DNA from: a virus
Length of the DNA stretch: 64,000 nucleotides
IMG/VR virus record: IMGVR_UViG_3300013102_000005
Coordinates: 29,778-93,777 of that record
Strand: one strand, 5' to 3'
Shown here one piece after another: positions 32,980-64,000 of this stretch. The position numbers and the translations under genes were made by a program. How positions within the stretch are numbered: the stretch's first letter is position 1; each line of letters opens with the position of its first letter. Under the pieces are notes generated by a model that did not search any database, had not been told where the DNA came from, and saw only the letters and a list, made by a program, of their open reading frames with translations.

Positions 32980-33266
32980 GCTGGCTTGACCTTGCGTGTG
33001 GCCCGGCTGGGCTGGAGGGTATAGGTCTGCCCTTGGTCGAGATCCCATGGGGTCTCGCTCTGGCAGTCCACACAGATTTTCAGGCGCAAGCTGGGCAGCT
33101 GAACCATGCACTTTCCGAAACAGCGCGGACAGACCTTGGTGGTCGGCAGGTCCGCGCCGGCAGGCGCGGCGGTCCGGTGACGCGCCTGGCGCCACCGATT
33201 GGATTTGGGCTTGCTCCAGACCCAGGCCAGCGCGACGCTCACGGCGAGCAGGATGATCTGTTTCAT
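32976..33266 (-). CDS. Small membrane-anchored zinc-ribbon protein
   Basis: 96 residues. An N-terminal hydrophobic helix (MKQIILLAVSVALAWVW) is followed by a basic stretch and CPRCFGKC then CVDC, a four-Cys zinc ribbon. Coupled to both neighbours. Probably sits on the inner membrane with the ribbon in the cytoplasm; function unknown. Confidence 0.55.
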   Translation of the reverse strand: MKQIILLAVSVALAWVWSKPKSNRWRQARHRTAAPAGADLPTTKVCPRCFGKCMVQLPSLRLKICVDCQSETPWDLDQGQTYTLQPSRATRKVKPA

Positions 33267-34477: not shown

Positions 34478-34827
34478 GCCGCAATCTCCAATCCAGTAAG
34501 CTCCAATACCCGCGCCGGCACGTCGTGCCCCAGGCGCAGCAGTTCCTCGGCGATGCCCTTGAGCACCTGCTCCTGGGCGCCGTAGTGCGCCTCCCACCGC
34601 CGCTTGTGCGGGTGCACCGCCAGCGCGGCGCCGTTGTCCTGGTGATGGGGCTCGCACAGCGGCAGCACCAGCCAGTGGGCGTCGGGCTTGGTGCGGCCGT
34701 CGATGTGATGGATCGAGACGTAGCTGTTGAAACCATGGCCATCGGCTGCGCAGCACACGCAACCGATCACCTGGGCAAGCAAATCGTGCCAGCGCTTCTG
34801 CACCGGACTCGGGGTGGTTCCAAACAT
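34474..34827 (-). CDS. Ref-like HNH recombination nuclease
   Basis: 117 residues. KRWHDLLAQVIGCVCCAADG, SIHHIDGRTKPDAHWLVLPL and CEPHHQ match the P1 Ref family, an HNH-type nuclease that acts on RecA-bound DNA. The His-His-Asp and His-His of the HNH core are visible. GGAG precedes the chosen ATG. Works with host RecA by analogy; not shown here. Confidence 0.8.
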   Translation of the reverse strand: MFGTTPSPVQKRWHDLLAQVIGCVCCAADGHGFNSYVSIHHIDGRTKPDAHWLVLPLCEPHHQDNGAALAVHPHKRRWEAHYGAQEQVLKGIAEELLRLGHDVPARVLELTGLEIAA

Positions 34828-35704: not shown

Positions 35705-36623
35705 GGGTGCGCTCCTCTCGGGTGGATTGGGTGCCTCGGGCGTTGGCCAGCGTCGGATCGAACCGCTCCTCGCGGAGATCCTGGCGAGTATTGGCCGTGG
35801 GGTCTTCGTAGATCCGCAGGAATCGCTCGGTCTTCTCGGCCTCGCGGAAGATCAGCGACAGGTCGTTGTACTTCACCTTGCCCTTGATCGGCCGGCCTTG
35901 GTCGTCACGACCCATGTGGAAGTGCGAGCGTGAACACCCGGTGATGGCGTTCAGGGTCGTGTCCAGCCCGTAGGTTCTCAAGGCGCGGTTCAGGATGGCG
36001 CGGCGTTTGGCGTCGAGCAGCGAACGGGGGGATGCCATCGAGTTCTGCCAGTGAACGAATACCCGCTCCACGAGGCGCTCACGGTCAGCAGCGGTCAGCG
36101 CAGCAAACACATCGGCCGTCACCAGGCGTCCGTCGCCAGACGGACAAGTATCTGTCTCTACTGGATTATTGTTGTTTGTATTATTCCCTTGCGTGTTTTC
36201 CGAAGGGGGGTATTCGGATTCCCGAACACACCCCTTCGGAATCTCGAAGGGGTCAGAGCCCGTGTTCGAATTATCGAAGGGGGGCAAGTCTGGGCCCCGC
36301 GTCACAGAAACCGGCGCGCCCAGTGGACGGGTCAGACGGATGATCCGGGTCTGTACCTGCTTGGTCCCCGCCTTGTATTTCAGCTCCACCGAGATCAGGC
36401 GCTTCTGCTCCAGGCCGCTGATGATCTCCGATACCCGCGACTTGGACAGGTTGAAGAACTCAGCGAAGTAGGCGTTCTTGGCGTAGCACCCGCGCTCGAC
36501 GTCATCCAGGCTGTCGATCTCCGTCAGCATCACCTTCTCGACGATGGACAAGTCCCGATCCAGCCACACCTCGGCGGGGATCCAGACGCCCTTGAATTTG
36601 CGTTTTGGCTCGAAACACGTCAC
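35655..36623 (-). CDS. Replication initiator, O-like winged-helix protein
   Basis: 322 residues, GTG start. KFKGVWIPAEVWLDRDLSIV and then KNAYFAEFFNLSKSRVSEIISGLEQK form a winged helix as in phage O and primosomal proteins. Residues 110-160 are low-complexity (NNTNNNNP), matching DNA with clustered repeats (36201-36282). The C-terminal half has VFAALTAADRERLVERVFVHW. By analogy with lambda the origin lies inside this gene and P is encoded next to it. Confidence 0.8.
   Translation of the reverse strand: MTCFEPKRKFKGVWIPAEVWLDRDLSIVEKVMLTEIDSLDDVERGCYAKNAYFAEFFNLSKSRVSEIISGLEQKRLISVELKYKAGTKQVQTRIIRLTRPLGAPVSVTRGPDLPPFDNSNTGSDPFEIPKGCVRESEYPPSENTQGNNTNNNNPVETDTCPSGDGRLVTADVFAALTAADRERLVERVFVHWQNSMASPRSLLDAKRRAILNRALRTYGLDTTLNAITGCSRSHFHMGRDDQGRPIKGKVKYNDLSLIFREAEKTERFLRIYEDPTANTRQDLREERFDPTLANARGTQSTREERTHDRNRDVIEGQAERLD
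36201..36282. other. Candidate replication origin inside the O-like gene
   Basis: CGAAGGGG occurs at 36201, 36245 and 36275, with an inverted CCCCTTCG at 36231-36238; GTGTTCG and its inverse CGAACAC flank them. An AT-rich run (36170-36190) adjoins. Iteron-like repeats inside an O gene plus an AT-rich flank are the hallmark of lambdoid origins. Binding of the O-like protein is inferred. Confidence 0.55.
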
Positions 36624-41870: not shown

Positions 41871-43109
41871 ATGTGTTGGTTCAATAGCCTCCGCCTGTAC
41901 CGCCTGACCCAGCCGGTCGAGTTCGAGCCCGACGCCCTGGAGGCAGCGCTGGCCAGCAAGCCCGCCCGCCCGTGCGGATCCCAGGAGCTGTCCACCTACG
42001 GTTTCATCCCGCCGCTCGGCAAGCATGGCGTCGCCCTGGTGCACGCCGTTGCCGGCAACCTGCTGGTGGCCTGCCGCCGTGAGGAGCGCAAGCTCAATTC
42101 CGGCGCCATCAAGGACGCGCTCCAGGACAAGGTGGACGCCATCGAGAAGGAGCAGCTGCGCAAGGTCTACAAGAAGGAGAAGGAGCAGCTCAAGGACGAG
42201 ATCGTCATGGCCATGCTCCCGCACACCCCGCCCACGCGCAAAACCACCTACGCGGCCATCCTGCCCGCCCTCGGCATGATTGCCGTGAACGCCAGCAGCC
42301 CGCGCGCCGCCGAGGACCTGCTATCGACCCTGCGCGACGCCCTGGGCTCGCTGCCGGTGCGGCCGGTAGGCGTGAAACAAGCGCCGATGGCCACCTTCAC
42401 CGACTGGGTCAAGGCGGGCGATGCCACCCACGGCCTGCTGCTGCTCGATGAGTGCGAGCTGCGCGACATCAGCGAAGGCGGCGGCATCGTGCGGTGCAAG
42501 AATCAGGACCTCACCGCCGAGGAGATCCAGAACCACCTGGAGGCCGGCAAGCTGGTGACGCGGCTGATGCTGGCCTGGGAGGACAAACTGGCCTTCCACC
42601 TGGCGGACGACCTGGCCATCACCCGACTCAAGTTCGAGGACCTGCTCCAGGAGCAGGCCGAGCAGGACGGCGGCGACGAGGCGGCCGGCCAGTTCGATGC
42701 GAGTTTCGCCCTCATGTGCCTGACCTTCGAGCAGTTCGTGCCGCAGCTGATCGAGGCCCTGGGCGGCGAGGAGATCCCTCAAGGCCTGGGCGATGACCCA
42801 GCGGCCCCGCCGGCCCAACGCGAGGCGCGCGTGGTACGCGCCGAGGTTCAGCTGGATGCGTTCAATGCCAACGCCTCCCAGCAAGCCGCCAGGGAAGAGC
42901 TGGCCACCGTCGCCGGTCTGGGCGAGCAGGATGCCCTTCTGGGTGAGGCGATCGCCTTCGTGCGCGAGAGTCGGCGCGCCAGCATCAGTGCGATCCAGCG
43001 CAAGCTCAAGATCGGCTACAACCGGGCGGCGGCGATGATCGAGGCGCTGGAACAGATGGGCATCGTCACGCCGATGAGTTCCAACGGCACCCGTGAGGTG
43101 ATCGGCTGA
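41871..43109 (+). CDS. RdgC-like protein fused to an FtsK gamma domain
   Basis: 412 residues. The first ~300 ([68 protein letters not shown]) are RdgC, a ring protein that binds DNA and restrains RecA. Residues 356-412 ([20 protein letters not shown], then [12 protein letters not shown] and [14 protein letters not shown]) match the FtsK gamma winged helix, which reads KOPS sites and activates XerD. The motor domain is absent. The product could connect host chromosome/plasmid dimer resolution signals with recombination control. Start ATG with GGGGGCC; coupled to the methyltransferase. Confidence 0.85.
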
Positions 43110-44584
43110 TGCTGTCCTACGGGTCCGTCTGTAGCGGCATCGAAGCCGCCACCGTTGCATGGGAACCGCTCGGCATGCGTGCCGCCTGGTACGCCGAGAT
43201 CGAGGCCTTCCCCTGTGCTGTTCTCGCCCACCACTACCCCCAGACCCCGAATCTCGGGGACATGACCACCATCGCCCGCCAGGTACTGGCCGGCCTGGTG
43301 GACGCGCCAGACGTCCTCGTCGGCGGCACTCCCTGCCAGGCATTCAGCCTGGCAGGCATGCGCCAGGGACTTGAAGACCCGCGCGGCGCCCTGACCATCA
43401 GATATGTGGAGCTCCTCGATGCAATTGACCATGTTCGAACCCAACGCGGGGACCCCGAGTGCGCTGGAGTCTGGGAAAACGTCCCAGGTGTCCTCTCCGA
43501 CAAAGGCAATGCGTTCGGCTGCTTCCTCGCAGCCATGGTGGGCGAACCCGAAGAACTCCAGCCGCCAGGGGGAAAATGGAAGGACGCTGGTTGTGTGTAT
43601 GGACCCCGCCGAGCAGTCGCATGGCGGGTTCTGGATGCCCAATATTTCGGCCTGGCCCAACGACGCCGCCGTGTGTTCCTTGTGGCAAGTGCTCGAAAAG
43701 ACTTCGATCCCGCATCGGTACTTTTTGAGCGCGAAGGCCTGCGCCGGGATTCTCCGCCGCGCCGTGGCGCGGAACAGGACCTTGCCGGCGCCCTTACTTC
43801 GAGCCTTGCAAAGCGGGGCGGAAAGCCGGACTGCGGAAGCACACCAGGACACCTGATCGCCGGCACGCTCCAGGCGGGCGGCAAGACTGCCGGTTCGGCT
43901 ACTTTGCAGGACGCAGAGTCGGGCCTCCTGCTGGCATTTGGTGGCGGCGCAAACTGTAACGCCACCGAGGTCAGCACTGCCCTGCAAGCGCATCCTGGTG
44001 GTGTGCGCATGGAGGGGGAGACAGACACCTTCGTCGTCCACGGCACTCAGGACCCGGATGTCAGCGTAGGCGTCACTCACCCCATGGGCCGCAACCAGGG
44101 CCAGGAGAACGTCGTACTGGCGTTCAGCTGCAAGGATCATGGTGCCGATGTGGGTCCGTTGGCGCCGACACTGCGCGCAATGGGGCACGGCGAGAGTCAC
44201 GCCAATGCAGGCGGCCAAGTTGCGGTCTGCATCAGCGAGACGCCCAGCGCGGCGGCCTTTGCAGAGAACTCCAGGGCCGAGCTTCGTTACGAGGCAGGCG
44301 ATGGGAGCATCACCGGCTCAATGTGCAGCGGCGGCGGCAAGCCAGGCCAGTCCTACCCCGTCGCACAGGTCGGCTCATCGGTGCGCCGCCTGATGCCCCA
44401 CGAATGCGAACGCCTCCAGGGCTTCCCTGATGACTACACCCTGATCCCCTGGCGCAGCAGACCAGCCGAGGAATGCCCGGACGGTCCCCGCTACAAGGCC
44501 ATCGGCAATAGCAAGGCCGTGCCTGTGGTGCGCTGGATCGGTCGGCGGCTCCTGGCGCAGCTCGGCAGGGGGACCCTCCATTGA
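43109..44584 (+). CDS. DNA (cytosine-5) methyltransferase
   Basis: 491 residues with the motif order of C5 enzymes: I (SVCSGIEAATVAW), IV (GGTPCQAFS, catalytic Cys76), VI (WENVPG, 122-127), VIII (LAQRRRRVF), IX (RRLMPHECERLQGFPDDY) and X (YKAIGNSKAV). A target-recognition region lies at about 200-430. It would protect phage DNA from restriction or mark its own DNA. No cognate endonuclease is seen nearby. A second gene is nested out of frame at 43419-43856. GAGGTG precedes the ATG. Confidence 0.93.
   Translation: MLSYGSVCSGIEAATVAWEPLGMRAAWYAEIEAFPCAVLAHHYPQTPNLGDMTTIARQVLAGLVDAPDVLVGGTPCQAFSLAGMRQGLEDPRGALTIRYVELLDAIDHVRTQRGDPECAGVWENVPGVLSDKGNAFGCFLAAMVGEPEELQPPGGKWKDAGCVYGPRRAVAWRVLDAQYFGLAQRRRRVFLVASARKDFDPASVLFEREGLRRDSPPRRGAEQDLAGALTSSLAKRGGKPDCGSTPGHLIAGTLQAGGKTAGSATLQDAESGLLLAFGGGANCNATEVSTALQAHPGGVRMEGETDTFVVHGTQDPDVSVGVTHPMGRNQGQENVVLAFSCKDHGADVGPLAPTLRAMGHGESHANAGGQVAVCISETPSAAAFAENSRAELRYEAGDGSITGSMCSGGGKPGQSYPVAQVGSSVRRLMPHECERLQGFPDDYTLIPWRSRPAEECPDGPRYKAIGNSKAVPVVRWIGRRLLAQLGRGTLH
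43419..43856 (+). CDS. Overlapping gene nested inside the methyltransferase
   Basis: 145 residues in another reading frame than the methyltransferase. The start MQLTMFEPNAGTPSA, a middle with PNISAWPNDAAVCSL and the segment HRYFLSAKACAGILRRA match a known small phage protein family that overlaps cytosine methyltransferase genes (the RYFLS-KACAGILRRA motif). A GGAG ribosome site precedes the ATG. The region is therefore coding in two frames. Function unknown; it may aid or control methylation. Confidence 0.75.
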   Translation: MQLTMFEPNAGTPSALESGKTSQVSSPTKAMRSAASSQPWWANPKNSSRQGENGRTLVVCMDPAEQSHGGFWMPNISAWPNDAAVCSLWQVLEKTSIPHRYFLSAKACAGILRRAVARNRTLPAPLLRALQSGAESRTAEAHQDT

Positions 44585-46286: not shown

Positions 46287-47411
46287 CTACCAGAGCCGCT
46301 CTGCCAAATCACTCCCTCGGAGCGAGAGATAACGCCGCAGCGTGTTCACGTTGCGGTGCCCCGTTATCCGCGCGATCACCATCATGTCCATGTTCGTCCG
46401 CTCGAAGTAGCGGCAAGTCGCTTCGTGCCGGCAGTCATGGAAATGGAAGTCGCTGCACTCGGCGGCATCGAATATTCGCGCGAACTGGCGCGAGAGCAGC
46501 GCCGACACTCGTTTCAGTTCCTTGGCCGCACGCGCCCCTGACCACCACGGAAACAGCGGATCGTCGCCCTCCCCCGCGTGGCGCTCGATGCAGCCCTGGA
46601 GTACGCGCACCGCGACCGTCGATAGCGGCACCTGGCGGGTGTCCCCGTTCTTGGTTCGGTCCAGGTAGACGGTACGCCTGGCCAGGCTCACCTGATCCGG
46701 CGTGAGTGTGTAGATCTCGCGCAGTCGCATAGCGGTTTCCAGCGCCAGGTCGAACACGGCAAGGAGATCCTCCCGATGCTCCAGGCGCAGGGGGCGCTGG
46801 CGGCCGGTCGGCGTCTCACGGTCCAGAATCTCGCGCACAGCCTGTTCCTCCTCGCCGGCCAGGCGCCGGTCACGGACGCCCTCCTCTATCGGCGGCAGGT
46901 TTCGCTGAGCCAGCGCCTGGCGATCGGCGTCGTTGTAGGTGGCATAGCGCCTGGGCAGCTCCCGAACCGGATTGGCTGCTAGCCGCTTGCGGCGAACAGC
47001 CCAGTCCATCGCCCGGCCCAGGGCCCCAACGTAGTGCCGGATGGTCACCGGTGCCAAGCCGCGCTCGCGTTTCATCACCAGGATCCAGCCATCGAGCCAC
47101 CCATGGTCCAGCTCGGTGATGGTTCGCCGGCCGTGCTGGCGCGCAATGGCCGCCAGCAGCGGCGGGTCAGATTCCGATACCGCCACCGCCTCCTGGTACT
47201 CCTCGATGAGGCGAGACAGGGTCAGCGGTGGTGTCAGGCGATCACGCAGGATCGGATGGATCACGCCGTCAGCCAGGCCTGCCTCAATGGCAGCGACTAC
47301 AGCGTCACCCTCCTCCTCAGTCGCGAAGCTCAGCGACACGGGCCGCTCCAGCAGCCCCTTGCGGCGCACGACGTATTCCCAAGACCGGCCGCGCAGGCGC
47401 TTGGTTGCCAT
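46287..47411 (-). CDS. int: Tyrosine-type site-specific recombinase (integrase)
   Basis: 374 residues. Catalytic residues Arg229 (ETAMRLRE), Lys254, His325 and Arg328 (HDCRH), His352 (GHRN) and Tyr361 (RRYLSLRG) are all present. N-terminal residues 60-160 form the core-binding SAM-like domain. Temperate phages use this enzyme for integration and excision; in a phage-plasmid it may resolve multimers instead. GGAG precedes the ATG. No attachment site could be identified by eye. Confidence 0.93.
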   Translation of the reverse strand: MATKRLRGRSWEYVVRRKGLLERPVSLSFATEEEGDAVVAAIEAGLADGVIHPILRDRLTPPLTLSRLIEEYQEAVAVSESDPPLLAAIARQHGRRTITELDHGWLDGWILVMKRERGLAPVTIRHYVGALGRAMDWAVRRKRLAANPVRELPRRYATYNDADRQALAQRNLPPIEEGVRDRRLAGEEEQAVREILDRETPTGRQRPLRLEHREDLLAVFDLALETAMRLREIYTLTPDQVSLARRTVYLDRTKNGDTRQVPLSTVAVRVLQGCIERHAGEGDDPLFPWWSGARAAKELKRVSALLSRQFARIFDAAECSDFHFHDCRHEATCRYFERTNMDMMVIARITGHRNVNTLRRYLSLRGSDLAERLW

Positions 47412-47436
47412 CTGCTACTCCATGAAACAAGACAGG

Positions 47437-47506
47437 TGAAGAATGACCCATGACGTCATGCAGGTGATGTCATGGGTATTACGTCATACAAATGACGTCA
47501 CTGCTT
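47437..47506. repeat. 14-bp direct repeats with TGACGTCA core (centromere cluster A)
   Basis: Units start at 47451, 47465, 47479 and 47493, exactly 14 bp apart, with cores TGACGTCA, TGATGTCA, TTACGTCA and TGACGTCA; a degenerate unit may begin at 47437. The array spans the end of the RHH gene. Period and palindromic core fit binding of a ribbon-helix-helix ParB. Confidence 0.7.
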
Positions 47507-47803
47507 CGGCTTGCCGTAGCCCGCTGCGCGCAGCGCATCCTCAATGATGTGGCTCACAGCCTTGTGGCCGTCTGTCTTGTTGCGCTTGTTCTGGTAGATC
47601 TCGTCGTTCAGCTGCTGGAGCATCTGCGACGGCAAGGTGATGGTGATCCGGTCGCGCCCTTCGGGTTCTTCCGGCGCTGGGTTGTCCTGTCCGTACTCAC
47701 GATTGGCCAATGTCTTGGCCAGTGCCTGGGAGATCGCGGGATCCGGCGGGAGGCGATCCTCGGCGGGTAGTTCCTGGGGCTGGGAGTTGTTGGGCTTACG
47801 CAT
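47498..47803 (-). CDS. Ribbon-helix-helix centromere-binding protein (ParB type Ib)
   Basis: 101 residues. The N-terminal 50 are flexible and acidic; residues about 54-97 (DRITITLPSQMLQQLNDEIY then KAVSHIIEDALRAAGY) form a ribbon-helix-helix, as in ParG/ParR-type partners of small ParA proteins. The start overlaps the parA stop and has GGAGG. It would bind the 14-bp repeats and contact ParA. Confidence 0.75.
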   Translation of the reverse strand: MRKPNNSQPQELPAEDRLPPDPAISQALAKTLANREYGQDNPAPEEPEGRDRITITLPSQMLQQLNDEIYQNKRNKTDGHKAVSHIIEDALRAAGYGKPKQ

Positions 47804-48446
47804 CGCCGAATACCTCCGCATACAGGGCTTCGACCTCGGCACGTGCCTTGTCGTCGTTCGCCTCCAGCACGCCCTTGCCCTGGGCGGCGCTATCCCGGTA
47901 GACCTGGCGGTAGCAGGCGATGGCCGCCAAATACTCGAGTTCGGGCAGCTCCTTGATGAAGCTGACGAAGTCCTCGCGCTCGCGCTTGGATAGATGAGGG
48001 TGGGTGCTGGCCATCGATTGGTAGCAGCGGACGCGCAGGCGCTTGTTGTGCAGGCGAGCAGCACGTGCCTGGGCCGACAGCTCTTTCATGGTGTCCATGT
48101 CGAACTGGCTGGACTGATGCGGCGCTATCACCTGGTCGGCCACGAGCATGCCCGTTACGAGCTCTTCGCTGTTCCGGCCGGCCACGTCCACCAGCACGTG
48201 CTGGTACTTCTTAGCCATGTCGAACAGCGCCATAGCGATGTCGCCGCGCGCCTCCACCATCGGGATGCGCGGCTCGATCTTTTCCTCGTTGCGGTACTGG
48301 ATGAAGTCGGGCAACGACTTCTGCTTGTCCGCGTTCACCACGATGAAGTCGAGCCCCAGATGGGCCATCTTCACTGCCATTTGTATGCAGGTGGTGGTCT
48401 TGGTGGCGCCGCCTTTGTTGCAGCCAACGATCGTTATCTGTCCCAT
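47796..48446 (-). CDS. parA: ParA partition ATPase
   Basis: 216 residues, typical of type Ib ParA proteins without an N-terminal DNA-binding domain. The deviant Walker A is NKGGATKTTT (residues 9-18); HVLVDVAGR near residue 87 is the switch II/Walker B region. It moves low-copy plasmid copies to daughter cells. AGGAAG precedes the ATG. The 5' region carries a row of five 14-bp repeats, so expression is probably autoregulated. Confidence 0.9.
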   Translation of the reverse strand: MGQITIVGCNKGGATKTTTCIQMAVKMAHLGLDFIVVNADKQKSLPDFIQYRNEEKIEPRIPMVEARGDIAMALFDMAKKYQHVLVDVAGRNSEELVTGMLVADQVIAPHQSSQFDMDTMKELSAQARAARLHNKRLRVRCYQSMASTHPHLSKREREDFVSFIKELPELEYLAAIACYRQVYRDSAAQGKGVLEANDDKARAEVEALYAEVFGDA

Positions 48447-48582
48447 GACTTCCTATCCATGACGTACTACATGTGACGCAGGACAGATGACGTATGACAG
48501 ATGAAGTCCTACGCTCGGCCCCGCGAGATGTATTAAGCATGAAGCATTACCCATGACGTCATCAATCATGTGCATGACGTCA
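48446..48582. repeat. 14-bp direct repeats upstream of parA (cluster B)
   Basis: Five units start at 48446, 48460, 48474, 48488 and 48502, exactly 14 bp apart (TGACTTCC, TGACGTAC, TGACGCAG, TGACGTAT, TGAAGTCC). Two further perfect TGACGTCA cores lie at 48554 and 48575, 21 bp apart. They begin at the parA start codon and cover its promoter region, so the RHH protein probably represses the operon as well as marking the centromere. Confidence 0.75.
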
Positions 48583-48611
48583 TACAGACGACAGTGATCC
48601 AGTTCGCGCTG

Positions 48612-48640
48612 GCCACTCGCCCGGAGCCCGAGCGAGTGGC
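48612..48640. repeat. 9-bp inverted repeat
   Basis: GCCACTCGC (48612-48620) pairs with GCGAGTGGC (48632-48640) around an 11-base loop. It could terminate transcription from the gene region at 48.7 kb toward par or be a structural element of the centromere region. Confidence 0.4.
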
Positions 48641-48655
48641 TACCCTTTCGGACAC

Positions 48656-48868
48656 TCAACGCTGGACCATGACCGAGACCTGCACCGATGATTGGGAGGG
48701 AGGCATAGGCGCCGGGGTTGGTTGCAGAGCCGCCAGGATCAGCAGGGCGATGATTTCAGGAATGTGTTTGCGCATCGGGGGCATCCAGTGGGTGAGTTCG
48801 CCGCCAATCGTGTTGTCACGACTCCAACGCTTCCACTTGGGGTTCTGCACGAAGGGGGTCACGACCAT
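48656..48868 (-). CDS. Possible small membrane protein
   Basis: A 70-residue frame with a hydrophobic stretch (IPEIIALLILAALQPTP) and no good ribosome site; an internal ATG could start a shorter form. The gap between par and the next gene is otherwise empty, so it may be a small plasmid-side membrane gene. Weak evidence. Confidence 0.25.
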   Translation of the reverse strand: MVVTPFVQNPKWKRWSRDNTIGGELTHWMPPMRKHIPEIIALLILAALQPTPAPMPPSQSSVQVSVMVQR

Positions 48869-48901
48869 CTGAGGTGTCAAGGCTCGCTGGTCAAGAAGCC
48901 T

Positions 48902-48940
48902 AGGCCAATGCCCTGCCGTCTCCCGGCAGGGCATTGGCCT
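48902..48940. repeat. 17-bp perfect inverted repeat
   Basis: AGGCCAATGCCCTGCCG (48902-48918) and its exact inverse (48924-48940) are separated by 5 bases. No T-tract follows on either strand. A perfect 17-bp stem is much longer than a terminator needs and could be a recombination, replication or phage-packaging signal. Confidence 0.6.
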
Positions 48941-49030
48941 CTCCCGCAGTCCAAGATAGGCATCATCCAGTGCGCAGCAGAGCAGCAAGCCCAAATAGCC
49001 GCCGGTTCCGCCGGCCAGGAGTCTTGAAAC

Positions 49031-49342
49031 ATGGAAGAGTCGATTTTCGTGATCCACCGCGCCACGATCCTGCGGCAAGAACGCCTACAGGCCCTCGTGC
49101 TGCACCTCTACAACTCCAGTGAATGGGATTTCAACTTGGGCGACCAGTTGACCCAGTTGGACGCCGAGAACTTGGAGATCGCTATTGCGATGATGCGGTC
49201 CTATCACCAGCATGGCGAGAACGACCCAGATTTCTTGGACCTTGGCCGGAAGCTGGCTGACTACCGAATTGAACGTAGGCGCCAGTTCGACGCCGAGCTT
49301 GCCGCGCTGGACGAAGAGGCTCGACGCGACGCCCAGGAATAG
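49031..49342 (+). CDS. DUF7673-like hypothetical protein
   Basis: 103 residues. HLYNSSEWDFNLGDQLTQLD and a following helical part resemble the small DUF7673 group of plasmid and phage proteins (an F-D-L-x-L-D pattern). AGGAG precedes the ATG. Function unknown. Confidence 0.5.
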   Translation: MEESIFVIHRATILRQERLQALVLHLYNSSEWDFNLGDQLTQLDAENLEIAIAMMRSYHQHGENDPDFLDLGRKLADYRIERRRQFDAELAALDEEARRDAQE

Positions 49343-49398
49343 AACAGCCCGACGAGGGCACCCCGCCGGCGCCGCCGGCCTTGACGCGAGGTGACATC

Positions 49399-49620
49399 AT
49401 GAAAACCTGCACTGTGTACGGCGATATGCAAGCCGATCGAGCTTCCGAGCAATACCCGACGGTGAACCTCTGCGACGAATGCCACGCGCAAGAATTGGCA
49501 GCAGAGAAAGCCAACGGCGAATCAAACCTAGTGAGTACCGACTCGACCTATGACCCGGATCTAGGCGAATGCTCCAGCTGCGGCAAGACCGAGGAAGAGG
49601 AAAAGCTTGAGGTCTTCTGA
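49399..49620 (+). CDS. Small protein with two CxxC motifs
   Basis: 73 residues starting with GAGGTG upstream of ATG. CDECHAQ and CSSCGK form a likely zinc site; the rest is acidic. Possibly an anti-restriction or regulatory peptide; unknown. Confidence 0.5.
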   Translation: MKTCTVYGDMQADRASEQYPTVNLCDECHAQELAAEKANGESNLVSTDSTYDPDLGECSSCGKTEEEEKLEVF

Positions 49621-49709
49621 CCTAGGCGCTCTGGATCAACTCCATGTCCGGGCCCTAGCCCGGCTGGAGCCTCCCACAACAGCGCTGTGGCCGAGTAACG
49701 ACCCTGCCG

Positions 49710-50120
49710 CTACCCGATCTTCGGCAGTGATTCAGTTAGGTCTGTAGGCGGCTTGGGCGGCGGCGTGAAGTAGTCGCCTTGGGTATGATCGGTTCGACCG
49801 GGGCTGCTCAAAGCCTTCGCCAGGGCGCTATCGGGATAGCGTGGGGGCAGATTAGGAGGGTTTAGGGACTTGAGGCCAAGTTGCTGGCGCAGCCGGGTGT
49901 TCTCGATGCTCAGCCTATGGACCCATTCGCGTAACCCATTGGCCGTGAGCTGGGCGTCCTCCACCTGGTAGGACAGCCGGCCGATGAGGGTATTCCGATT
50001 GGCCAGGGCGATGTGCAATCGCTCAACTTCGTCTGGCGACCCATAGCCCAACATGTCATTTTCCCCATTGGGTCGATCAAGCTGGGTATGGCAATAGAAC
50101 TGCGAATGGCAAGCGGGCAT
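49710..50120 (-). CDS. Coiled-coil protein, SOS-regulated by position
   Basis: 136 residues. A helical first half with a leucine-rich coiled coil (WVHRLSIENTRLRQQLGL) and a proline-rich C-terminus. AGGAGG precedes the ATG. The start lies 16 bp from a LexA-type box shared with the divergent RMF-like gene, so both probably respond to DNA damage. Function unknown. Confidence 0.5.
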   Translation of the reverse strand: MPACHSQFYCHTQLDRPNGENDMLGYGSPDEVERLHIALANRNTLIGRLSYQVEDAQLTANGLREWVHRLSIENTRLRQQLGLKSLNPPNLPPRYPDSALAKALSSPGRTDHTQGDYFTPPPKPPTDLTESLPKIG

Positions 50121-50135
50121 GGCGAGGTCCTCCTA

Positions 50136-50155
50136 TACTGTTTATATGTCCAGTA
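50136..50155. promoter_or_regulatory. LexA (SOS) box
   Basis: TACTGTTTATATGTCCAGTA at 50136-50155 matches the LexA consensus TACTGT-N8-ACAGTA except for C in place of A at the first base of the right half. It lies between two divergent genes and on the AT-rich side of the oriV region. Confidence 0.7.
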
Positions 50156-50185
50156 TTGAGGATGATAGTTCATCCCTGAGCCGCC

Positions 50186-50362
50186 ATGAATAGACCGATC
50201 ACCAACCACCGCGCTTCGAACGCATGGCATCAAGGCTACGAGGCGTTCCTGGCGGGCCTGGGAGACCCCTGTCCCTACCCAGGCGACTCGCTGGCGGGGA
50301 TTGAGTGGAACGATGGCTGGAGCGTCGCTGAGCGCCGCCTACGCTTCTTGGAAGACGAGTGA
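50186..50362 (+). CDS. RMF/CrpP-like protein
   Basis: 58 residues. NAWHQGYEAFLAGLGDPCPYP followed by IEWNDGWSVAERRL has the spacing of ribosome modulation factor (GYxAGxxGxxxxxCPY, then W-x-GW) and of CrpP-type proteins of Pseudomonas plasmids. It follows the LexA box by 30 bp and is too short for many gene finders. Could bind ribosomes in stress; activity unknown. Confidence 0.65.
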   Translation: MNRPITNHRASNAWHQGYEAFLAGLGDPCPYPGDSLAGIEWNDGWSVAERRLRFLEDE

Positions 50363-50382
50363 TCACACGAAAGGGAATTAGG

Positions 50383-50859
50383 ATGAGCGTTACCGCCTTC
50401 ACCGAACTGGCAAAAGAAATCCTAGCGGCAGTTACTCCAGAAGGGCTCGTGGCACCGGAACCACTCGAAAGTAAGGTGGCCGACCTCAAGGCCCAGGGGA
50501 AGCTGAGCCCATACCAGGAAAAATTCCTTTTGGGCATGATTCATCACGAAAAGATCCGCGCAGCAGCGAAGACGATGTTTGACTCCCGTGAGGCCAGTCA
50601 GAAGTCCAAAGACGCAGCGAAGAAGCTGATGAATACCCCGAGCGCAACCGCCGACGGGCCCATGCAGCTGTTCACCGCAGCAGAAATTGGGGACCTCGGT
50701 GATGAACAGTTCAAGCTGATCACGCTTAAAGCAATCGACAAGCTCAAAATACCCAGCCGGCCGGTCACACAAACAGCGCCAGCTGCGAAGGTCCAGGATG
50801 AATCCCCAGCGCCCCAGAACAAGAAAAACGACTCCACCAGCACCAGCAAGCCGAAATAA
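50383..50859 (+). CDS. Hypothetical plasmid-side protein
   Basis: 158 residues from the ATG with AGGGAATTAGG. A helical N-terminal half (TELAKEILAAVTPEGL) and a low-complexity Lys/Ser/Thr tail. It lies just upstream of the iterons. Possibly an auxiliary replication or copy control protein, by position only. Confidence 0.5.
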   Translation: MSVTAFTELAKEILAAVTPEGLVAPEPLESKVADLKAQGKLSPYQEKFLLGMIHHEKIRAAAKTMFDSREASQKSKDAAKKLMNTPSATADGPMQLFTAAEIGDLGDEQFKLITLKAIDKLKIPSRPVTQTAPAAKVQDESPAPQNKKNDSTSTSKPK

Positions 50860-50904
50860 GGGCATTTCGCCTAAATAGCCGAAATATGGACGCTCCAGGC
50901 ACCA

Positions 50905-50992
50905 GCACCAAATCTGTACGGCGCAAGCACCAAATTCCTCCGGTTGAAGCACCAAATTTGTACGGTCGAGACACCAAATGTGTACGGCTGAA
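50905..50992. repeat. Four 22-bp iterons of oriV
   Basis: Units begin at 50905, 50927, 50949 and 50971, exactly 22 bp apart, with the shared core GCACCAAAT (ACACCAAAT in the last) followed by a CTGTACGG-type half in three of four. This is the layout of iteron plasmids whose Rep_3 initiator binds the repeats to start replication and control copy number. Confidence 0.85.
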
Positions 50993-51027
50993 ACCCCTGG
51001 AAGCCGCGCCATTACTGGGCTGTAGAG

Positions 51028-51083
51028 GTCCGAAAGCTTTTAAAGTTAGTAAAGCTATAAAAGGGAAAACAGCCTGTGAATAA
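51028..51083. other. AT-rich segment and DnaA-box-like site of oriV
   Basis: An AT-rich stretch starting near 51028 follows the iterons and is a likely melting region. TGTGAATAA at 51075-51083 is the reverse complement of TTATTCACA, one mismatch from the DnaA box TTATCCACA. Confidence 0.65.
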
Positions 51084-51131
51084 CTTGAAAACCCAGCAGC
51101 AGCGCAGGTTTCAGGCCCAAAAAGCCCCGTT

Positions 51132-51153
51132 TTTCACCGTACAGAATTGGTGC
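51132..51153. promoter_or_regulatory. Inverted iteron upstream of rep
   Basis: Read on the minus strand this 22-bp segment gives GCACCAATTCTGTACGG, an iteron in the opposite direction ending 9 bp before the rep ATG. Inverted iteron halves near rep serve as operators for Rep-dimer autorepression. Confidence 0.65.
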
Positions 51154-51161
51154 AATTTCCC

Positions 51162-52034
51162 ATGAGGCAGTACGTCCGCAAATCGAACACCCTGGTGACA
51201 GCGCCCTACACGCTATCGCTCCAGGAACAGCGGGTGCTGCTGTGCTGCCTGGCGCAGATACCCAAGGACGCGCCGGCCAGCGATGAGATCTTCTACACGG
51301 TCACCACGGCCGACATCATTCGCCTCTCCGGCATATCGGCCACCTCAGCCTACGCAGAGCTGAAACGCGCCGCCGAGGGCCTCAAGCGCAAGGAGGTACG
51401 TCTTACCGACGGTCCCCAAGGCGATCCGCTCGATGACGTGGTAATCACCAACTGGGCCCAGGCCATCAAGCTGTCGAAAAAGGGCGGCATTATCGGCATC
51501 CAGTTTCCCAAGGTACTGCTGCCCTACCTCTCGGAACTGAACAAACAGTTCACGTATTACGAGCTGGCTGACGTGCTCAAGATGAGCAGCACCTACTCGA
51601 TACGCCTCTACGAGCTGATGCGCCAATGGCGCGCCGCTGGCTCGGTTGAGATCCCCTTATCGGAGCTGCGGGTGATGTTCGAGCTCCAGGACAAATACCC
51701 GGAATACTACGAATTCAAGCGTCGCGTACTGGATCCTGCGCTCAAGGAGATCAACGACCTGTCGCCGATCAACGTGATGATGGAGCCGGTGAAAGCCGGC
51801 AAAAGCGTCGAGGGCCTGCTGTTCGACATCAGCCAGAAATCCAAGCCGGCCAAGCAAGAGCCAGAGCAACTGGGTTTTCTCGATCTGGGCGAGATCATCG
51901 TCCCACCGCCAAAGCGTCGGGGCCGCAAACGACTGGTGACAGAACAGCAGCTCAGCGAACTGGCCAGGCCAGGCGAGAGCCGGGAGGCAGCGATGCTGCG
52001 CCTGAACGTCCGCCTGCGTACAGCAGACGCATGA
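51162..52034 (+). CDS. rep: Rep_3-type plasmid replication initiator
   Basis: 290 residues. MRQYVRKSNTLVTAPYTLSL, then LCCLAQIPKDA, and two winged-helix domains with TYYELADVLKMSSTYSIRLY and EFKRRVLDPALKEINDLSPI match Rep_3 initiators (RepE/Pi/RepA group). It binds the four iterons, opens the origin and represses its own gene. The ATG follows the inverted iteron; the ribosome site is weak, typical for autoregulated rep genes. Defines the plasmid part of this phage-plasmid. Confidence 0.92.
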   Translation: MRQYVRKSNTLVTAPYTLSLQEQRVLLCCLAQIPKDAPASDEIFYTVTTADIIRLSGISATSAYAELKRAAEGLKRKEVRLTDGPQGDPLDDVVITNWAQAIKLSKKGGIIGIQFPKVLLPYLSELNKQFTYYELADVLKMSSTYSIRLYELMRQWRAAGSVEIPLSELRVMFELQDKYPEYYEFKRRVLDPALKEINDLSPINVMMEPVKAGKSVEGLLFDISQKSKPAKQEPEQLGFLDLGEIIVPPPKRRGRKRLVTEQQLSELARPGESREAAMLRLNVRLRTADA

Positions 52035-52151
52035 AGTCACCTGTATTACGGGTGATTTCTTGCATCATACGGATGATGTCACCCATAACTCTTCATTCGT
52101 CATGGGTCGTGGGTCTTCCGAATGACGTCACCTTTCATCTGTATGAAAGAT
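52032..52151. repeat. TGACGTCA-type repeats downstream of rep (cluster C)
   Basis: Units at 52032 (TGAAGTCA), 52046 (TTACGGGT), 52060 and 52074 (TGATGTCA) keep the 14-bp step; a perfect TGACGTCA is at 52123. The spread array differs from clusters A and B but uses the same core, so the RHH protein may bind here too and join the two ends of the plasmid module. Confidence 0.6.
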
Positions 52152-52266
52152 GACTCCGCTCGGCGCCCTGGACAGTCCATCTGTCCAGCGAAATGTCGAA
52201 ATACTGGCGAAATAGCCAACTCGCGTAGTCGGCCTAGTTGACGTCCACTTTTTGCCTGATCAAGAG

Positions 52267-52291
52267 AAAGCCGCCCATGAGGCGGCTTTTT
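52267..52291. terminator. Bidirectional rho-independent terminator
   Basis: GCCGCC (52270-52275), a 5-base loop and GGCGGC (52281-52286) are flanked by AAA upstream and TTTTT downstream. Plus-strand transcription from rep and minus-strand transcription from the lysis side meet here. Confidence 0.85.
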
Positions 52292-53963: not shown

Positions 53964-54157
53964 GGGGATCCCTTAACGACTAGGGTGACCAGGGCGGTAA
54001 ATACGCCCGAGAGGATCAGGCCGGTGGCGCCGAACACCAGCAACTTGACGGGAAAGAATTGCTCCTTGGTGATGTAGCCCTTTTCCCGCTCTTCAATCGC
54101 CGTGAGCCGCAGCTCAATCAGCGCGAGGCGCACGGCCTCGTTTTGTGCGTCAGCCAT
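53960..54157 (-). CDS. XhlA-like small membrane protein
   Basis: 65 residues: a helical charged half with RLALIELRLTAIEEREKGYI and a C-terminal membrane segment (VKLLVFGATGLILSGVF). This matches haemolysin XhlA-type accessory holins. It probably assists the holin. Confidence 0.6.
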   Translation of the reverse strand: MADAQNEAVRLALIELRLTAIEEREKGYITKEQFFPVKLLVFGATGLILSGVFTALVTLVVKGSP

Positions 54158-54911
54158 TGGGCGAGTCTCTGAAATAGGGTCGATATTTATGGCTGCGAAC
54201 GTCGAGGATGTTGGTGACATATTCGCGGTTGATCGCGAAAAATGACTTGCCATAGCCTGGCGATGGACGGCGTGCTTTCAGGCTATGTAGGGCGACGTGA
54301 CCATCCCAGCGAGAGGGATCGCACCCCCGCGTATTGGCGCAGAGTCGGCGATCCTGGAGCACGCCCGACTCGCCGCCGTTGTAGCCTGAAAAGGTAAAGC
54401 TCCAGCGGTCCCGGTCAGTGGCGGCGCCCTTCTGCCGCTGGTAGATGCCCTTGTCCATTTCCACCAGGGCGGTCAGCTGGTAGCGGCCGTCGTAGCGGTT
54501 CGCCCAGCCCCAGCCCTTGAGGGTGGGATAGGTGCTGGCCAATTCGGTGATCTTGTCGAAGCGGATCGAGCCGTCCGCGCGATAGGCTCGCGTGAACTGG
54601 CCCAGGCCGATGCCGTTCTCGCGCTTGGTCTTGAGCTCAGCGCGGGGGTTCCAGCACTTCGAGTGGGTCACCGTGATGCAGGATTCCTGCTCGATCTGGC
54701 CGGCCAGCACCTCCGGGGAGGGCGCGTCCGGCCAAATCAGGCGCTGCTGCTGGGCCAGAATGGGCAGCAGTGGCTTCGCGCCTGCCGGCACCTCGGCGGC
54801 ATGGGCAATCGTGGGCACGCACAGCATTACCGCCGCCACGCCCAGGATGCCGATCACCGCCAGCAGCGCCAGCAGGTAGTGGACCAGGGGCTGGACTAGG
54901 CGCGGACCCAT
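54150..54911 (-). CDS. Endolysin with signal-anchor N-terminus
   Basis: 253 residues. An N-terminal hydrophobic signal segment (YLLALLAVIGILGVAAVMLC) suggests secretion or a SAR-type anchor. The body has AGQIEQESCITVTHSKCWNP and GIGLGQFTRAYRADGS, with the catalytic Glu of a lysozyme or soluble transglycosylase. Degrades peptidoglycan at the end of infection. ATG overlaps the holin stop. Confidence 0.75.
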   Translation of the reverse strand: MGPRLVQPLVHYLLALLAVIGILGVAAVMLCVPTIAHAAEVPAGAKPLLPILAQQQRLIWPDAPSPEVLAGQIEQESCITVTHSKCWNPRAELKTKRENGIGLGQFTRAYRADGSIRFDKITELASTYPTLKGWGWANRYDGRYQLTALVEMDKGIYQRQKGAATDRDRWSFTFSGYNGGESGVLQDRRLCANTRGCDPSRWDGHVALHSLKARRPSPGYGKSFFAINREYVTNILDVRSHKYRPYFRDSPNG

Positions 54912-55216
54912 AGCACCATCCCCAGGAAGACCAGGCCCACGAAGAGCACCAGCGCCGCCGCCAGCAGGCCGGCCGCCACGTTGCCCTGGCGGATCTCCGC
55001 GACCAGCCAGGCGATGGACACCTGGGGGAACATGATGCGGGTGATGATGATCGTGAGCCCCGCCAGCACCAGGGGCACCAGCACCCACTGGCCGATGGTC
55101 TGGGCCATGGCGGGATCGATGTAGATCAGTGCAATCGCCGCCGGCAGCATCAGCAGCCAGGCGCCTTGGTCGAAGAGGGAACGGATCAGGAGAAAGAGGT
55201 GCTTGAGATTGCCCAT
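54896..55216 (-). CDS. Holin
   Basis: 106 residues with three hydrophobic segments (about 22-38, 45-62 and 86-104) and GGAG before the ATG. Layout and place before the endolysin fit a class I holin that opens the inner membrane at lysis time. No family match was made by sequence. Confidence 0.65.
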   Translation of the reverse strand: MGNLKHLFLLIRSLFDQGAWLLMLPAAIALIYIDPAMAQTIGQWVLVPLVLAGLTIIITRIMFPQVSIAWLVAEIRQGNVAAGLLAAALVLFVGLVFLGMVLWVRA

Positions 55217-56325: not shown

Positions 56326-57003
56326 CTACACGAGGTTGGTGAAGGTGTCGAACTGGACGAAGGACAGTTGCAGCTCCTGCATGCCGTCCTGGCGGCGCGA
56401 GCCCTCGTATTCGATGTTCTGCGGCCGCACCACGTAGCTCTCTACGAAGGCGCGGCCGGCGTTCTCGGACTTCTCGCTGATGAACGCATGGGTGATGGTG
56501 ATCCGCACCAGGTAGGAGAGCGGTAGGCCTACCGTCCCATCCCCTGGCGCCATCGCGCGCTTCAAGGTCTTGAACCAGGTCTTCACCGAACCGCCGACAT
56601 CGTCCATCGTCGTCAGGCGCAGCTGGACGGCTTCCACGCCATCCACCCGGTCGAAGCTGCCGGCGCCGACCGCCACCGACTCACCGCGCACGGTGAAGGG
56701 GGACACCCCGAAGTCCACGATGAACATGTTCATCGCCGGGGCGGTGCCGGTTTGCAGGTTGGTGACGTTGACGTGGTAGAGATTGGCCTTGGCCCGGTCG
56801 ATGGACATGAACTCATCGGCCATCGACCGCCAGTTCTTCTCGGACAGGCCGCCGAAAAGGGCCCGGTCGCCGGCGCGCACCGAGCTCGTGAGCTTCTGGC
56901 TGATCAGGTCGGTCCCGAACTTGATCAGCGGCGAGGCCTGGCCGAGGGCGGTCAGGTAATTCTGCCCCACCTGGTTAGCGAGCCGGCTAAAGATGCTACT
57001 CAA
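56326..57003 (-). CDS. Structural protein, possible baseplate/tube initiator
   Basis: 225 residues, TTG start with GAGGTG. The N-terminal 60 residues are helical; the rest is beta-rich, ending with FVESYVVRPQNIEYEGSRRQ, which resembles the last part of tail tube-like folds. It may be a tube initiator or a second tube-fold protein. Confidence 0.45.
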   Translation of the reverse strand: MSSIFSRLANQVGQNYLTALGQASPLIKFGTDLISQKLTSSVRAGDRALFGGLSEKNWRSMADEFMSIDRAKANLYHVNVTNLQTGTAPAMNMFIVDFGVSPFTVRGESVAVGAGSFDRVDGVEAVQLRLTTMDDVGGSVKTWFKTLKRAMAPGDGTVGLPLSYLVRITITHAFISEKSENAGRAFVESYVVRPQNIEYEGSRRQDGMQELQLSFVQFDTFTNLV

Positions 57004-60163: not shown

Positions 60164-61783
60164 TTACCGGCTCAGGGTCTGGCCCACGGTGATGACGCGG
60201 GTGGTGCCCTCGTAGCTGCACGAATGGCGCTCGTCGATCTTCTGCTTGGGCTGGGCCGAGTTCGGCTTGATGGTGGCCATGTAGGCCGCGCCACCCATGT
60301 CGTCCGAAGGCACCAGCCAGCCGGCGGTCTGCAACGCCGGGAACAGAGCCTCGATGTAGCGGGTGGTCAGCCGGATCGCTTCGCTGATCGGCTTCTGGAG
60401 CGCTTCCTTGGTGAAGATGGCAATGGCCTCGTCCACCGCTGCCGACATCTCAGCCACCGCTGCTAGCTGCTTGTCACCGTTGCTCTTGGAGCAGGTCAGC
60501 GAATCGAGGAAGACGTACTTGGCGCCGGAGGCGTAGGTCTGGGAGATCACCGGATTGATCTTGGCCTTGGCCAGCTTCTCCAGGTCGGCGTCTTCCAGGT
60601 TCACCAGCTGACGCACGCCAGTGCGGCCGGTCAGCGGGAACATGGACCCGGCGACCGGGTAATGCTTGGGTGCCACGCCGTTGGCGTCGGTCTGGGCGTT
60701 GCGCTTGCAGCGCAGGCCGAGGTGGGCGCCGGAGGTGCCGATGATCGCCTTGCCACCGTTGAGCGGGTCGTCCGAGTTCAGCGGGGCCCACAGCGCCTGG
60801 GTGTAGTGGTTGTCCAGGCCCAGATTGGCCATGAAGGCAACGGCGCCGGTCAGGGACAGCTCGCCCGGCACGTCGAACACGAAGACCTTGTTCATCTTGG
60901 TGGCCAGGGCGTCGAGCTTGCTCAGCAGGGCGACGTTCTTGCTTCCACCAGCACCCAGGTAGCCGAACGACTGGTTCGCGTGGAACAGGCGGTTGAGCGC
61001 TGCGTCGTAGTCGGTCGCCGCGTAGGTGGTGCCGCCCTCGTTGAAGTAGCTCAGGGTCGCATAGACCCACTGATCGTTGCCGTTGGCGTCCTGGCCATAG
61101 ATGTTCGAGGTGGCCGGCACGGTGGTGCCCTTGACCGAGACCTCTACGAGATCCGTCTGGCTGGCGACGGTGGAGCCCAGGAAATAGGAGTTGCCCGACT
61201 GATCCTTGTCGGTGACCACCAGCGAGCCGGTGAAATCGTCGAACAGCAGCTCGCCGCTGACCACGTCGTAGAGGCGAACCTTGACCACCTTGGACGCGAC
61301 AGCGGCGCCGGTGTTGTCGGCGGCCTCGACGGCATGGATGCCGATCTTGACGCCATCGTTGAAGCATTCCAGGTGCCGGATGGCTACCAGGTAGTCCGCC
61401 GGCAAGGCGCTGGCGACGCTCCAGGTGACGGCCTTGCTGGTGGTATCCATGGTGGCGACCATGTAGCTCAGGGTGGCGGCGGCCGGCACGATGCGCGAGC
61501 AGACGACTTGGGCGGCGCCGTTGGCCAGCGCCTCATAGACGTGCACGTGCGCCTCGTTGAGCGCGCTCGCCAGGATGGAGGTAGCCTGGCCCAGGCTGCG
61601 CGAACGGTTGCTCGCAGTGACCGGGAACGCCCGGTCAATCGCCCCGCGATCGGCGCGCAGCGGGATGGCCACGACCTGATCGCTGTCCGAGGCGGTGCCG
61701 CGCTCGGAGGCGTCGGCGAGATAGAGCAGCTGCACGCCGGAGCGGTAGACCGGAGCGCTGCGCGAAAACGCGGTTTGAGTCAT
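60164..61783 (-). CDS. Tail sheath protein
   Basis: 539 residues with AAGGGG upstream. The first domain is beta-rich, the middle has alpha/beta segments such as LFHANQSFGYLGAGGSKNVA, and the C-terminal domain (FTKEALQKPISEAIRLTTRY, then SYEGTTRVITVGQTLSR) fits the conserved end of contractile sheath proteins, a helix followed by a closing beta-strand. This makes the virion a myovirus. Long insertions relative to short sheaths are plausible for this length. Confidence 0.75.
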   Translation of the reverse strand: MTQTAFSRSAPVYRSGVQLLYLADASERGTASDSDQVVAIPLRADRGAIDRAFPVTASNRSRSLGQATSILASALNEAHVHVYEALANGAAQVVCSRIVPAAATLSYMVATMDTTSKAVTWSVASALPADYLVAIRHLECFNDGVKIGIHAVEAADNTGAAVASKVVKVRLYDVVSGELLFDDFTGSLVVTDKDQSGNSYFLGSTVASQTDLVEVSVKGTTVPATSNIYGQDANGNDQWVYATLSYFNEGGTTYAATDYDAALNRLFHANQSFGYLGAGGSKNVALLSKLDALATKMNKVFVFDVPGELSLTGAVAFMANLGLDNHYTQALWAPLNSDDPLNGGKAIIGTSGAHLGLRCKRNAQTDANGVAPKHYPVAGSMFPLTGRTGVRQLVNLEDADLEKLAKAKINPVISQTYASGAKYVFLDSLTCSKSNGDKQLAAVAEMSAAVDEAIAIFTKEALQKPISEAIRLTTRYIEALFPALQTAGWLVPSDDMGGAAYMATIKPNSAQPKQKIDERHSCSYEGTTRVITVGQTLSR

Positions 61784-62725: not shown

Positions 62726-64000
62726 TTACGCCGCAGCAGCGGTGCTGGTGGAGGAGTTCGCCGCCTTGAACATGTTCTTGACGGTGATCAGGGCGCAGCC
62801 CATCGCGGACGGCATATGCGGGTTCACCGAGGTGAAGTTCCGGGCGTAGAGCGCCTGGCCGAACTTCATGTCCTGGCCGAAGGCGGTCGGGAGCACGGTG
62901 ACCGGTACGGCGTCGCCCATGACGAAGCTGTTACGCGCCGGGCTGTTGGAGCGGCCGTAGCAGAGGATCTGAGCGGTGCCGGCGGCTTCGTCTTCCAGCA
63001 CTTCCCACGGGGTGTAGTACACCTCGTAGCGACCGAACAGGCGGCCGACGCGGTAGATACCGGGGATCTCGGTCAGGCCCGACTTCTCGAACAGGTCCGA
63101 GGGCAGGGCTTCCCACTGCGCCTTGACGGTCTTCGGGATGTAGAGGTGGGTCACCCCGCGATCCATGGTGAGCTCGGCCATCTTCTGGCTGACCTTGCCG
63201 AGGATGGCGGAGAAATCCTGCCAGACCTGGGCGCGGGTCTTCTGCTGCATCTGGCCTGCGTAGTCGAAATCGAACTCGTCGGTGTTGGCCGCAGCCAGGC
63301 GAACCGCCTTCACGAGGATGGAGCGGTGACGCTCGACGGTGATCTGGTTGCGAGCAGCCACCAGCGACTCGGCTTGCAGGTCCATGCCGATCTCGTTCTG
63401 GGCCTGGGTCTTGGAGTCGATGGTCTGGTCCAGCAGGCCACGCCAGGGCTTGGCGTAGAGGGTGTAGGTCTGGACCTGGGTTGCGATGCGCGGCGCCAGG
63501 GTAGGCTGCTTCTCGAAGTCGATATAGCCCTCGGCATGCACCACAGTGCCGGCCGGCAGGGCGGGGCTGAATGCCAGCGATACGGCGCCGGTGTCCGGGG
63601 TCACGGTGCCGCTGATGGTGTAGGTGGTGCCGGCCAGAATGGCCAGACCGGACAGCGGCAGGGTGGTGGCCGAAGCGTTGGCGTTCGGGTTTTCCTCAGC
63701 GACCGGGAAGCCGTTGACGTAGACCTGGGTACGGCCGCGCAGCAGCTTAACCTGGCTGTTTCCGTCCAGAGTAATACCACCCGTTGCAGTCGCTCGGTCG
63801 GTCGCCAGGGTGAGCTTTACCGTCCGCTCGGAAGACAAGAAGGTGTCGCCGATGTGGGTGCCGTCGAGCAGGTCGCCCACGTCGTAGCCGCCGACCTTGC
63901 TGGCGGCCTGGTGGCTGACGATGCCCAGGCGGGCCTCGTTCGAACCGATGCCGGTGGGCAGGTAGGTGGCGCCGGGGAAGGCCTCGGCTACAGCGCTCAG
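62726..64000 (-). CDS. Probable major capsid protein (5' part outside window)
   Basis: The frame is open to the window's right edge, so at least 424 residues are visible and the true start lies outside. Features: a long beta-rich N-terminal region, then DRGVTHLYIPKTVKAQWEAL and GIYRVGRLFGRYEVYYTPWE, and a C-terminal TSVNPHMPSAMGCALITVKN. The order and the placement before the sheath-type genes fit a HK97-fold capsid protein. The assignment is from context; a decoration or other head protein is not excluded. Confidence 0.55.
   Translation of the reverse strand: MSAVAEAFPGATYLPTGIGSNEARLGIVSHQAASKVGGYDVGDLLDGTHIGDTFLSSERTVKLTLATDRATATGGITLDGNSQVKLLRGRTQVYVNGFPVAEENPNANASATTLPLSGLAILAGTTYTISGTVTPDTGAVSLAFSPALPAGTVVHAEGYIDFEKQPTLAPRIATQVQTYTLYAKPWRGLLDQTIDSKTQAQNEIGMDLQAESLVAARNQITVERHRSILVKAVRLAAANTDEFDFDYAGQMQQKTRAQVWQDFSAILGKVSQKMAELTMDRGVTHLYIPKTVKAQWEALPSDLFEKSGLTEIPGIYRVGRLFGRYEVYYTPWEVLEDEAAGTAQILCYGRSNSPARNSFVMGDAVPVTVLPTAFGQDMKFGQALYARNFTSVNPHMPSAMGCALITVKNMFKAANSSTSTAAAA

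Follow-up and report, generated by a model that had tools for sequence, protein, structure and literature searches.

A plasmid-borne lysogenic life style is already known among phages, and P1 (with Cre), D6, pVv01 and others pair ParA with tyrosine recombinases that are thought to resolve dimers (PMC8026635). Here we describe a plasmid replicon and partition module in a 64,000-nucleotide stretch of viral DNA, referred to below as the window, which corresponds to bases 29,778-93,777 of the 93,777-base record IMGVR_UViG_3300013102_000005, about two thirds of the whole genome. The module (46287-52160, all gene frames intact) carries a Rep_3-type initiator with its origin, a ParA with a putative partner and a tyrosine recombinase, Int. 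The initial annotation had called this genome a phage-plasmid, and our analysis makes it very probable that the record represents the complete circular genome of a temperate myovirus that persists in lysogens as a low-copy plasmid, because it contains a complete origin and a Rep and Par module, the record is circular, and ParA is linked to circular records across the family. The phage belongs to a little-described family of myoviruses resembling Xanthomonas phage Rb1.

Among described phages, Escherichia phage D6, a 91-kb myovirus with a circular plasmid prophage, is of similar size and likewise has a Rep_3-type initiator, a ParA of type Ib with a ribbon-helix-helix (RHH) partner and a tyrosine recombinase (PMC8026635); identities to the window are 34% for ParA and 23% for Rep. 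In contrast, the tail sheath of the window has no match to D6, which indicates a separate virion lineage, and a search of 50,697 phage records with this sheath matched only Rb1 and ABMM1. While the D6 recombinase is described as Cre-like, that of the window is of the phage-integrase type with an N-terminal arm-like domain, and D6 additionally carries a small serine recombinase. Bacteriophage P1 is also similar as a myovirus of about 95 kb with a plasmid lysogen, a par system and a tyrosine recombinase (PMC8026635), but it uses a helix-turn-helix (HTH) ParB, ParA-Ia and Cre/lox, where the window has ParA-Ib, a putative RHH protein and an arm-type recombinase. In the plasmid pSM19035, several promoters carry runs of contiguous 7-bp repeats that are bound by the RHH protein omega, which needs at least four of these repeats to activate ParA and also controls its own gene and genes for copy control (PMC9499535). 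Rb1 (PQ569993, 91,478 bp) matches 33 proteins of the window's genome at 28-47% identity. It differs in carrying a large serine recombinase, adjoining its own recombination-gene cluster, and searches of it gave nothing over threshold for Rep_3, ParA or a tyrosine recombinase.

The features of the plasmid block, and one related array outside it, are as follows, in window coordinates unless stated otherwise.

46287-47411, minus strand: Int, tyrosine recombinase, 374 aa (PF00589, E=3e-21)
47437-47500, unstranded: array A, 7-bp periodic, candidate parS or int operator, between the RHH gene and int (score 0.165)
47498-47803, minus strand: putative RHH centromere-binding protein, 101 aa, overlapping the end of parA
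47796-48446, minus strand: ParA, ParF-like (type Ib), 216 aa (phrog_164, E=2e-30; AAA_31, E=1e-11)
48446-48600, unstranded: array B, 7-bp periodic, candidate parS or par operator, upstream of parA (score 0.221, the highest in the genome)
50904-50991, plus strand: four 22-nt direct iterons, upstream of rep
51033-51069, unstranded: AT-rich stretch, candidate unwinding element (77% A+T over 51040-51069)
51075-51083, minus strand: DnaA box TTATTCACA, adjoining the AT-rich stretch
51132-51153, minus strand: inverted iteron across the rep start, candidate autoregulatory operator (86% complementary to iteron 1)
51162-52034, plus strand: Rep_3 initiator, 290 aa, from the ATG at 51162; a TTG start at 51147 is also possible
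52034-52160, unstranded: array C, 7-bp periodic, candidate parS, downstream of rep (score 0.166, second-best)
contig 11496-11600 (window -18281 to -18177, outside the window), unstranded: fourth 7-bp array, intergenic among tail genes (score 0.153)

The iterons of the initial annotation, given there as 50905-50992, were recovered one nucleotide upstream, and at up to six mismatches their consensus had no match elsewhere in the 93.7-kb record apart from the inverted copy, and none in five shuffles. The predicted DnaA-like site was also found, as the single TTATNCACA match in the whole record. Searches with profile hidden Markov models confirmed the Rep_3 initiator, with Rep3_N (PF01051, E=1e-34) and Rep3_C (PF21205, E=1e-18) covering both the WH1 and WH2 domains. 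The protein resembles initiators of the RepE/RepM type, and the nearest relatives found belong to small Pseudomonas plasmids (45% identity to Rep of the Pseudomonas lundensis plasmid NZ_CP075178). The arrangement of the region, direct iterons ahead of rep plus an inverted half in the rep promoter, is that of Rep_3 iteron plasmids.

Of the annotated ParA/RHH pair, the ParA half was borne out by the profile matches above and by a match to ParF of TP228 (PDB 4dzz), and its small size, lack of an N-terminal HTH and deviant Walker A motif KGGATKT fit ParA-Ib. The 101-aa protein gave no significant family match of its own in profile searches. It is 41% identical to its counterpart in a relative, G001, which matches RHH_1 weakly and below the cut-off (E=0.019), and its low-confidence structure model contains two C-terminal helices; we therefore retain the RHH label as putative, on the basis of position after parA and weak similarity. 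A second, ParB/KorB-like HTH protein of 327 aa is encoded at 6968-7951 (minus strand), far from parA, and is conserved in the window's clade.

When the whole genome was scanned without bias for 7-bp periodicity and compared with ten whole-genome shuffles, four arrays exceeded the best shuffle (0.137), the fifth-best window scoring only 0.095. The placement of these four arrays, the strongest of the genome, is a new observation: one lies upstream of parA, one separates the RHH gene from int, one lies downstream of rep and the last is outside the window. In G001, whose ParA is 57% identical, three comparably strong arrays were present, one directly upstream of its parA; G002, G003, G004 and G025, which carry unrelated or distant ParAs, had none above the shuffle range except for a weak window in G002 (0.139). 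Two other array detectors were discarded: a 10-mer position weight matrix built from the repeats was unspecific (311 hits), and ATGACGTCAT by itself clustered only moderately. The arrays resemble the RHH centromeres of pSM19035, and by analogy the 101-aa protein may bind them. Both systems would combine a small ParA, an RHH protein and 7-bp arrays at several places over parA and other promoters (PMC9499535), the phage side being putative. They differ in the repeat, which is WATCACW in the plasmid and ATGACNN-like in the candidate arrays of the phage, and in the presence of an array ahead of the recombinase gene in the phage.

The first 123 bases of the record are identical to its last 123, so that it closes into a circle of 93,654 bp. 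The major capsid gene is a single 583-aa open frame across the join, and its N-terminus fits the layout of the Rb1 capsid protein. The terminal repeat and this frame together indicate that the genome is circular, or circularly permuted, at 93,654 bp. As annotated, structural and lysis genes lie in the record that carries the plasmid block; terminase, portal, sheath, baseplate, tape measure and endolysin genes were all matched, and this virion gene set, including the sheath, identifies a myovirus. Four virion and lysis genes of the window are listed here.

2780-4318, minus strand: terminase large subunit (phrog_2, E=2e-29; 40% identical to Rb1)
54150-55088, minus strand: endolysin (phrog_669, E=1e-23)
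60164-61783, minus strand: tail sheath (phrog_1036, E=3e-109)
62726-64000, minus strand, running past the record end: major capsid protein, homologous to that of Rb1

None of Rep, ParA and sheath from the window picked up a close relative in scans of viral contigs, whereas alignment of the window with Rb1 succeeded. The sheath alignment with Rb1 gave 68 relatives in IMG/VR and a wider alignment gave 21 in GTDB genomes; 38 records were searched whole. The phage thus belongs to a little-described myovirus family that includes Rb1. Among the 38 records, Rep_3 was found in 6, ParA in 12, a tyrosine recombinase in 19 and a serine recombinase in 3. Terminal repeats, the mark of circular records, were present in 7 of the 12 ParA-positive records as against none of the 18 ParA-negative records tested (Fisher p=0.0004). 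Every member of the window's clade (G000-G003, G009 and G030) is ParA-positive. Four ParA-negative records, G011, G015, G021 and G029, are identical over the compared stretches to loci on chromosomal contigs of Halomonas, Pseudothauera, Pusillimonas and Collimonas (contigs of 0.56-0.86 Mb; for G029 just a 42.6-kb fragment). Stand-alone contigs occur in isolates of Pseudomonas luteola (89.5 kb) and Paraburkholderia C35 (93.2 kb). The family thus holds both chromosomal prophages without ParA and circular members that bear it.

Plasmid parts differ even between close members. The slot between the spanin genes and rdgC is bordered on both sides by common phage genes in the window, G001, G002 and G003. 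In the window it contains Rep_3, ParA-RHH and Int; in G001, ParA-RHH and an AbrB/PIN-like pair (the latter pair read from the sequence, no search having been made); in G002, Int; and in G003, Int with RepA_C. The initiator varies likewise, from Rep_3 in the window to RepA_C in G003 and RPA in G030, and the Rep_3 of the window is not common to its nearest relatives. The P. luteola phage (NBRC 103146 contig 20; G002, IMG/VR 2663762783_000006) shares 62 proteins with the window's genome, carries ParA and is circular, but its ParA is a different one at another place, and no initiator of the Rep_3, RepA_C or RPA family was found in it. Members of the family have repeatedly exchanged plasmid parts, and with this turnover both the switching of lysogeny between integrated and episomal states and the replacement of one set of incompatibility determinants by another can be tested directly. 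According to a 2024 review, no phage-plasmid has been seen to form from a phage or a plasmid, although in actinophages integration modules and ParABS modules are known to take each other's place (PMC11652158).

From the genes, the sites, the circular record and the family pattern, which were observed directly, we infer the following binding, replication and recombination events. Rep would bind the 22-nt iterons and, with DnaA, open the adjoining AT-rich DNA, and the inverted iteron over the rep start would let Rep repress itself, as in Rep_3 plasmids. The RHH protein would bind the 7-bp arrays as centromeres pulled by ParA, and, on the model of the pSM19035 omega system, the same arrays may double as operators for parA and probably for int. 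The int gene comes next after parA and the RHH gene on the same strand, and its product would circularise or monomerise the episome.

Several points weigh against a plasmid lysogen. The circular map fits circularly permuted virion DNA equally well, and a par gene or a circular contig is by itself no proof of a plasmid prophage (PMC8026635). The distribution of ParA on the sheath tree needs 2 changes as against 9.7 in shuffles, so that the 12 ParA-positive records are non-independent; clustering of this kind implies few independent events, and the Fisher p overstates the evidence. The RHH label draws on weak similarity, Int has a predicted arm-binding-like domain and close kin in ordinary proviruses, and the evidence for this phage comes from its genome record. 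A rival reading is that the block is a plasmid fragment captured by an ordinary integrating or virulent phage, with Rep and Par as passengers or serving lytic replication only. The affinity of Rep_3 to small Pseudomonas plasmids, its absence from the nearest relatives and a separate candidate lytic replication gene (HTH_36; 35655-36623) would fit such a capture. All elements of a working origin and par locus are nevertheless intact and in order, and Par is kept clade-wide in differing versions alongside other plasmid initiators (RepA_C and RPA), which suggests selection for episomal maintenance; we regard capture as improbable. Even less credible is a chimeric assembly in which a phage contig was joined to a plasmid contig. 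Although this is an IMG/VR record and the G+C of the genome, 64% overall, falls to 0.56-0.60 near the origin, the slot has common phage flanks in three relatives, G001 carries the same ParA-RHH pair at the same place, and the record closes on itself.

A dual life style, with the prophage either integrated by Int at a chromosomal attachment (att) site or kept as an episome by Rep and Par, deserves more weight, although we consider it a possibility of the lesser sort. The tyrosine integrase annotated in the block was verified, with the catalytic residues R-K-H-R-H-Y all present. Its N-terminus is predicted to form a three-stranded sheet and a helix, arm-binding-like, with fold matches to the Int proteins of Tn1549 and lambda, and the provirus records L006-L009 carry relatives of 44-50% identity at their extreme edges, the one in L006 beside a P2-type replication gene. 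Int is 59% identical to its counterpart in circular G002 and 51-53% identical in circular G003. On the other hand, G002, the closest with a known host and the sole find in 399 genomes when Pseudomonadaceae were searched with Int, is a stand-alone circular contig, and its int-region DNA had no match above chance in its own P. luteola genome that could mark a chromosomal attB. Searches around int in G003, phage 8P and the window found no tRNA remnant, and the non-coding space around int amounts to just 3 nt downstream and 86 nt upstream, the latter filled with the par-type repeats of array A.

The initial annotation had suggested two prophage states or a resolution role for the recombinase, and the stand-alone G002 contig with no detected attB leans towards resolution. 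We put the chance that Int acts on the phage's own site, circularising or monomerising the episome, at about even, and that of occasional chromosomal integration as an alternative state appreciably lower, with an inactive Int or one in another role taking the remainder. A shared recombination core adjoining int was not found in G000, G002 and G003. Array A contains an inverted repeat, ACCCATGACGTCA-TGCAGG-TGATGTCATGGGT (13-6-13), which was set aside as a recombination site before int, being indistinguishable from an RHH operator. Through this array the putative RHH protein might directly control Int, so that segregation state or copy number would time dimer resolution or integration; we hold this to be rather unlikely, but if true, a single DNA-binding protein would govern partition as well as whether the phage exists as an episome or in another form. 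The initial annotation had considered the pairing of a par system with an integrase unusual. This does not hold, since ParA and a tyrosine recombinase occur together in half of the 12 ParA-positive records (the window, G002, G003, G009, G025 and G030), as they do in P1, D6 and pVv01 (PMC8026635).

No XerCD dif-like site was found in the window's genome (best score 13.6, shuffles up to 19.5). Strong sites of this type were present in G001 (56441-56468, L013 record; ACTTCGCATAA TACCGA TTATGTTAAAG) and G005 (27452-27479, L020 record; ACTTCGCATAA TCTTTC TTATGTCAAAT), both of which have no tyrosine recombinase over threshold, and these sites are candidates for Xer-based dimer resolution or dif integration. 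In G004, G006, G007 and G013, also with no tyrosine recombinase over threshold, no site rose above the shuffles, and complementarity between dif-like site and tyrosine recombinase is only a lead.

At 41871-43109 (plus strand) the window encodes a fusion of RdgC with a C-terminal FtsK gamma domain (PF09397, E=3e-23), and G002 has the same fusion. F116-like Pseudomonas phages match it over its full length, and 14 of the 38 family records have FtsK gamma; in the collection of papers searched, none joins the terms RdgC and FtsK gamma. A part for this protein in a Xer-based resolution system was ruled against, as it occurs in ParA-positive and ParA-negative relatives alike.

Within the plasmid block, a homologue of ribosome modulation factor is encoded at 50186-50362 (plus strand; PF04957, E=3.5e-7), with a similar gene in the same slot of G001, and at 48902-48940 lies a perfect inverted repeat of 17 bp around a 5-nt loop, with no T run after it. 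Elsewhere the window encodes a PAPS-reductase-family protein (33263-34756, minus strand) and a C5 cytosine methylase (43109-44584, plus strand), and the DNA at 15325-16560 (minus strand) shows 73% identity across 717 nt to a gene annotated in Caulobacter phage BL57 as an RNA 2',3'-PO4:5'-OH ligase (RtcB-type).

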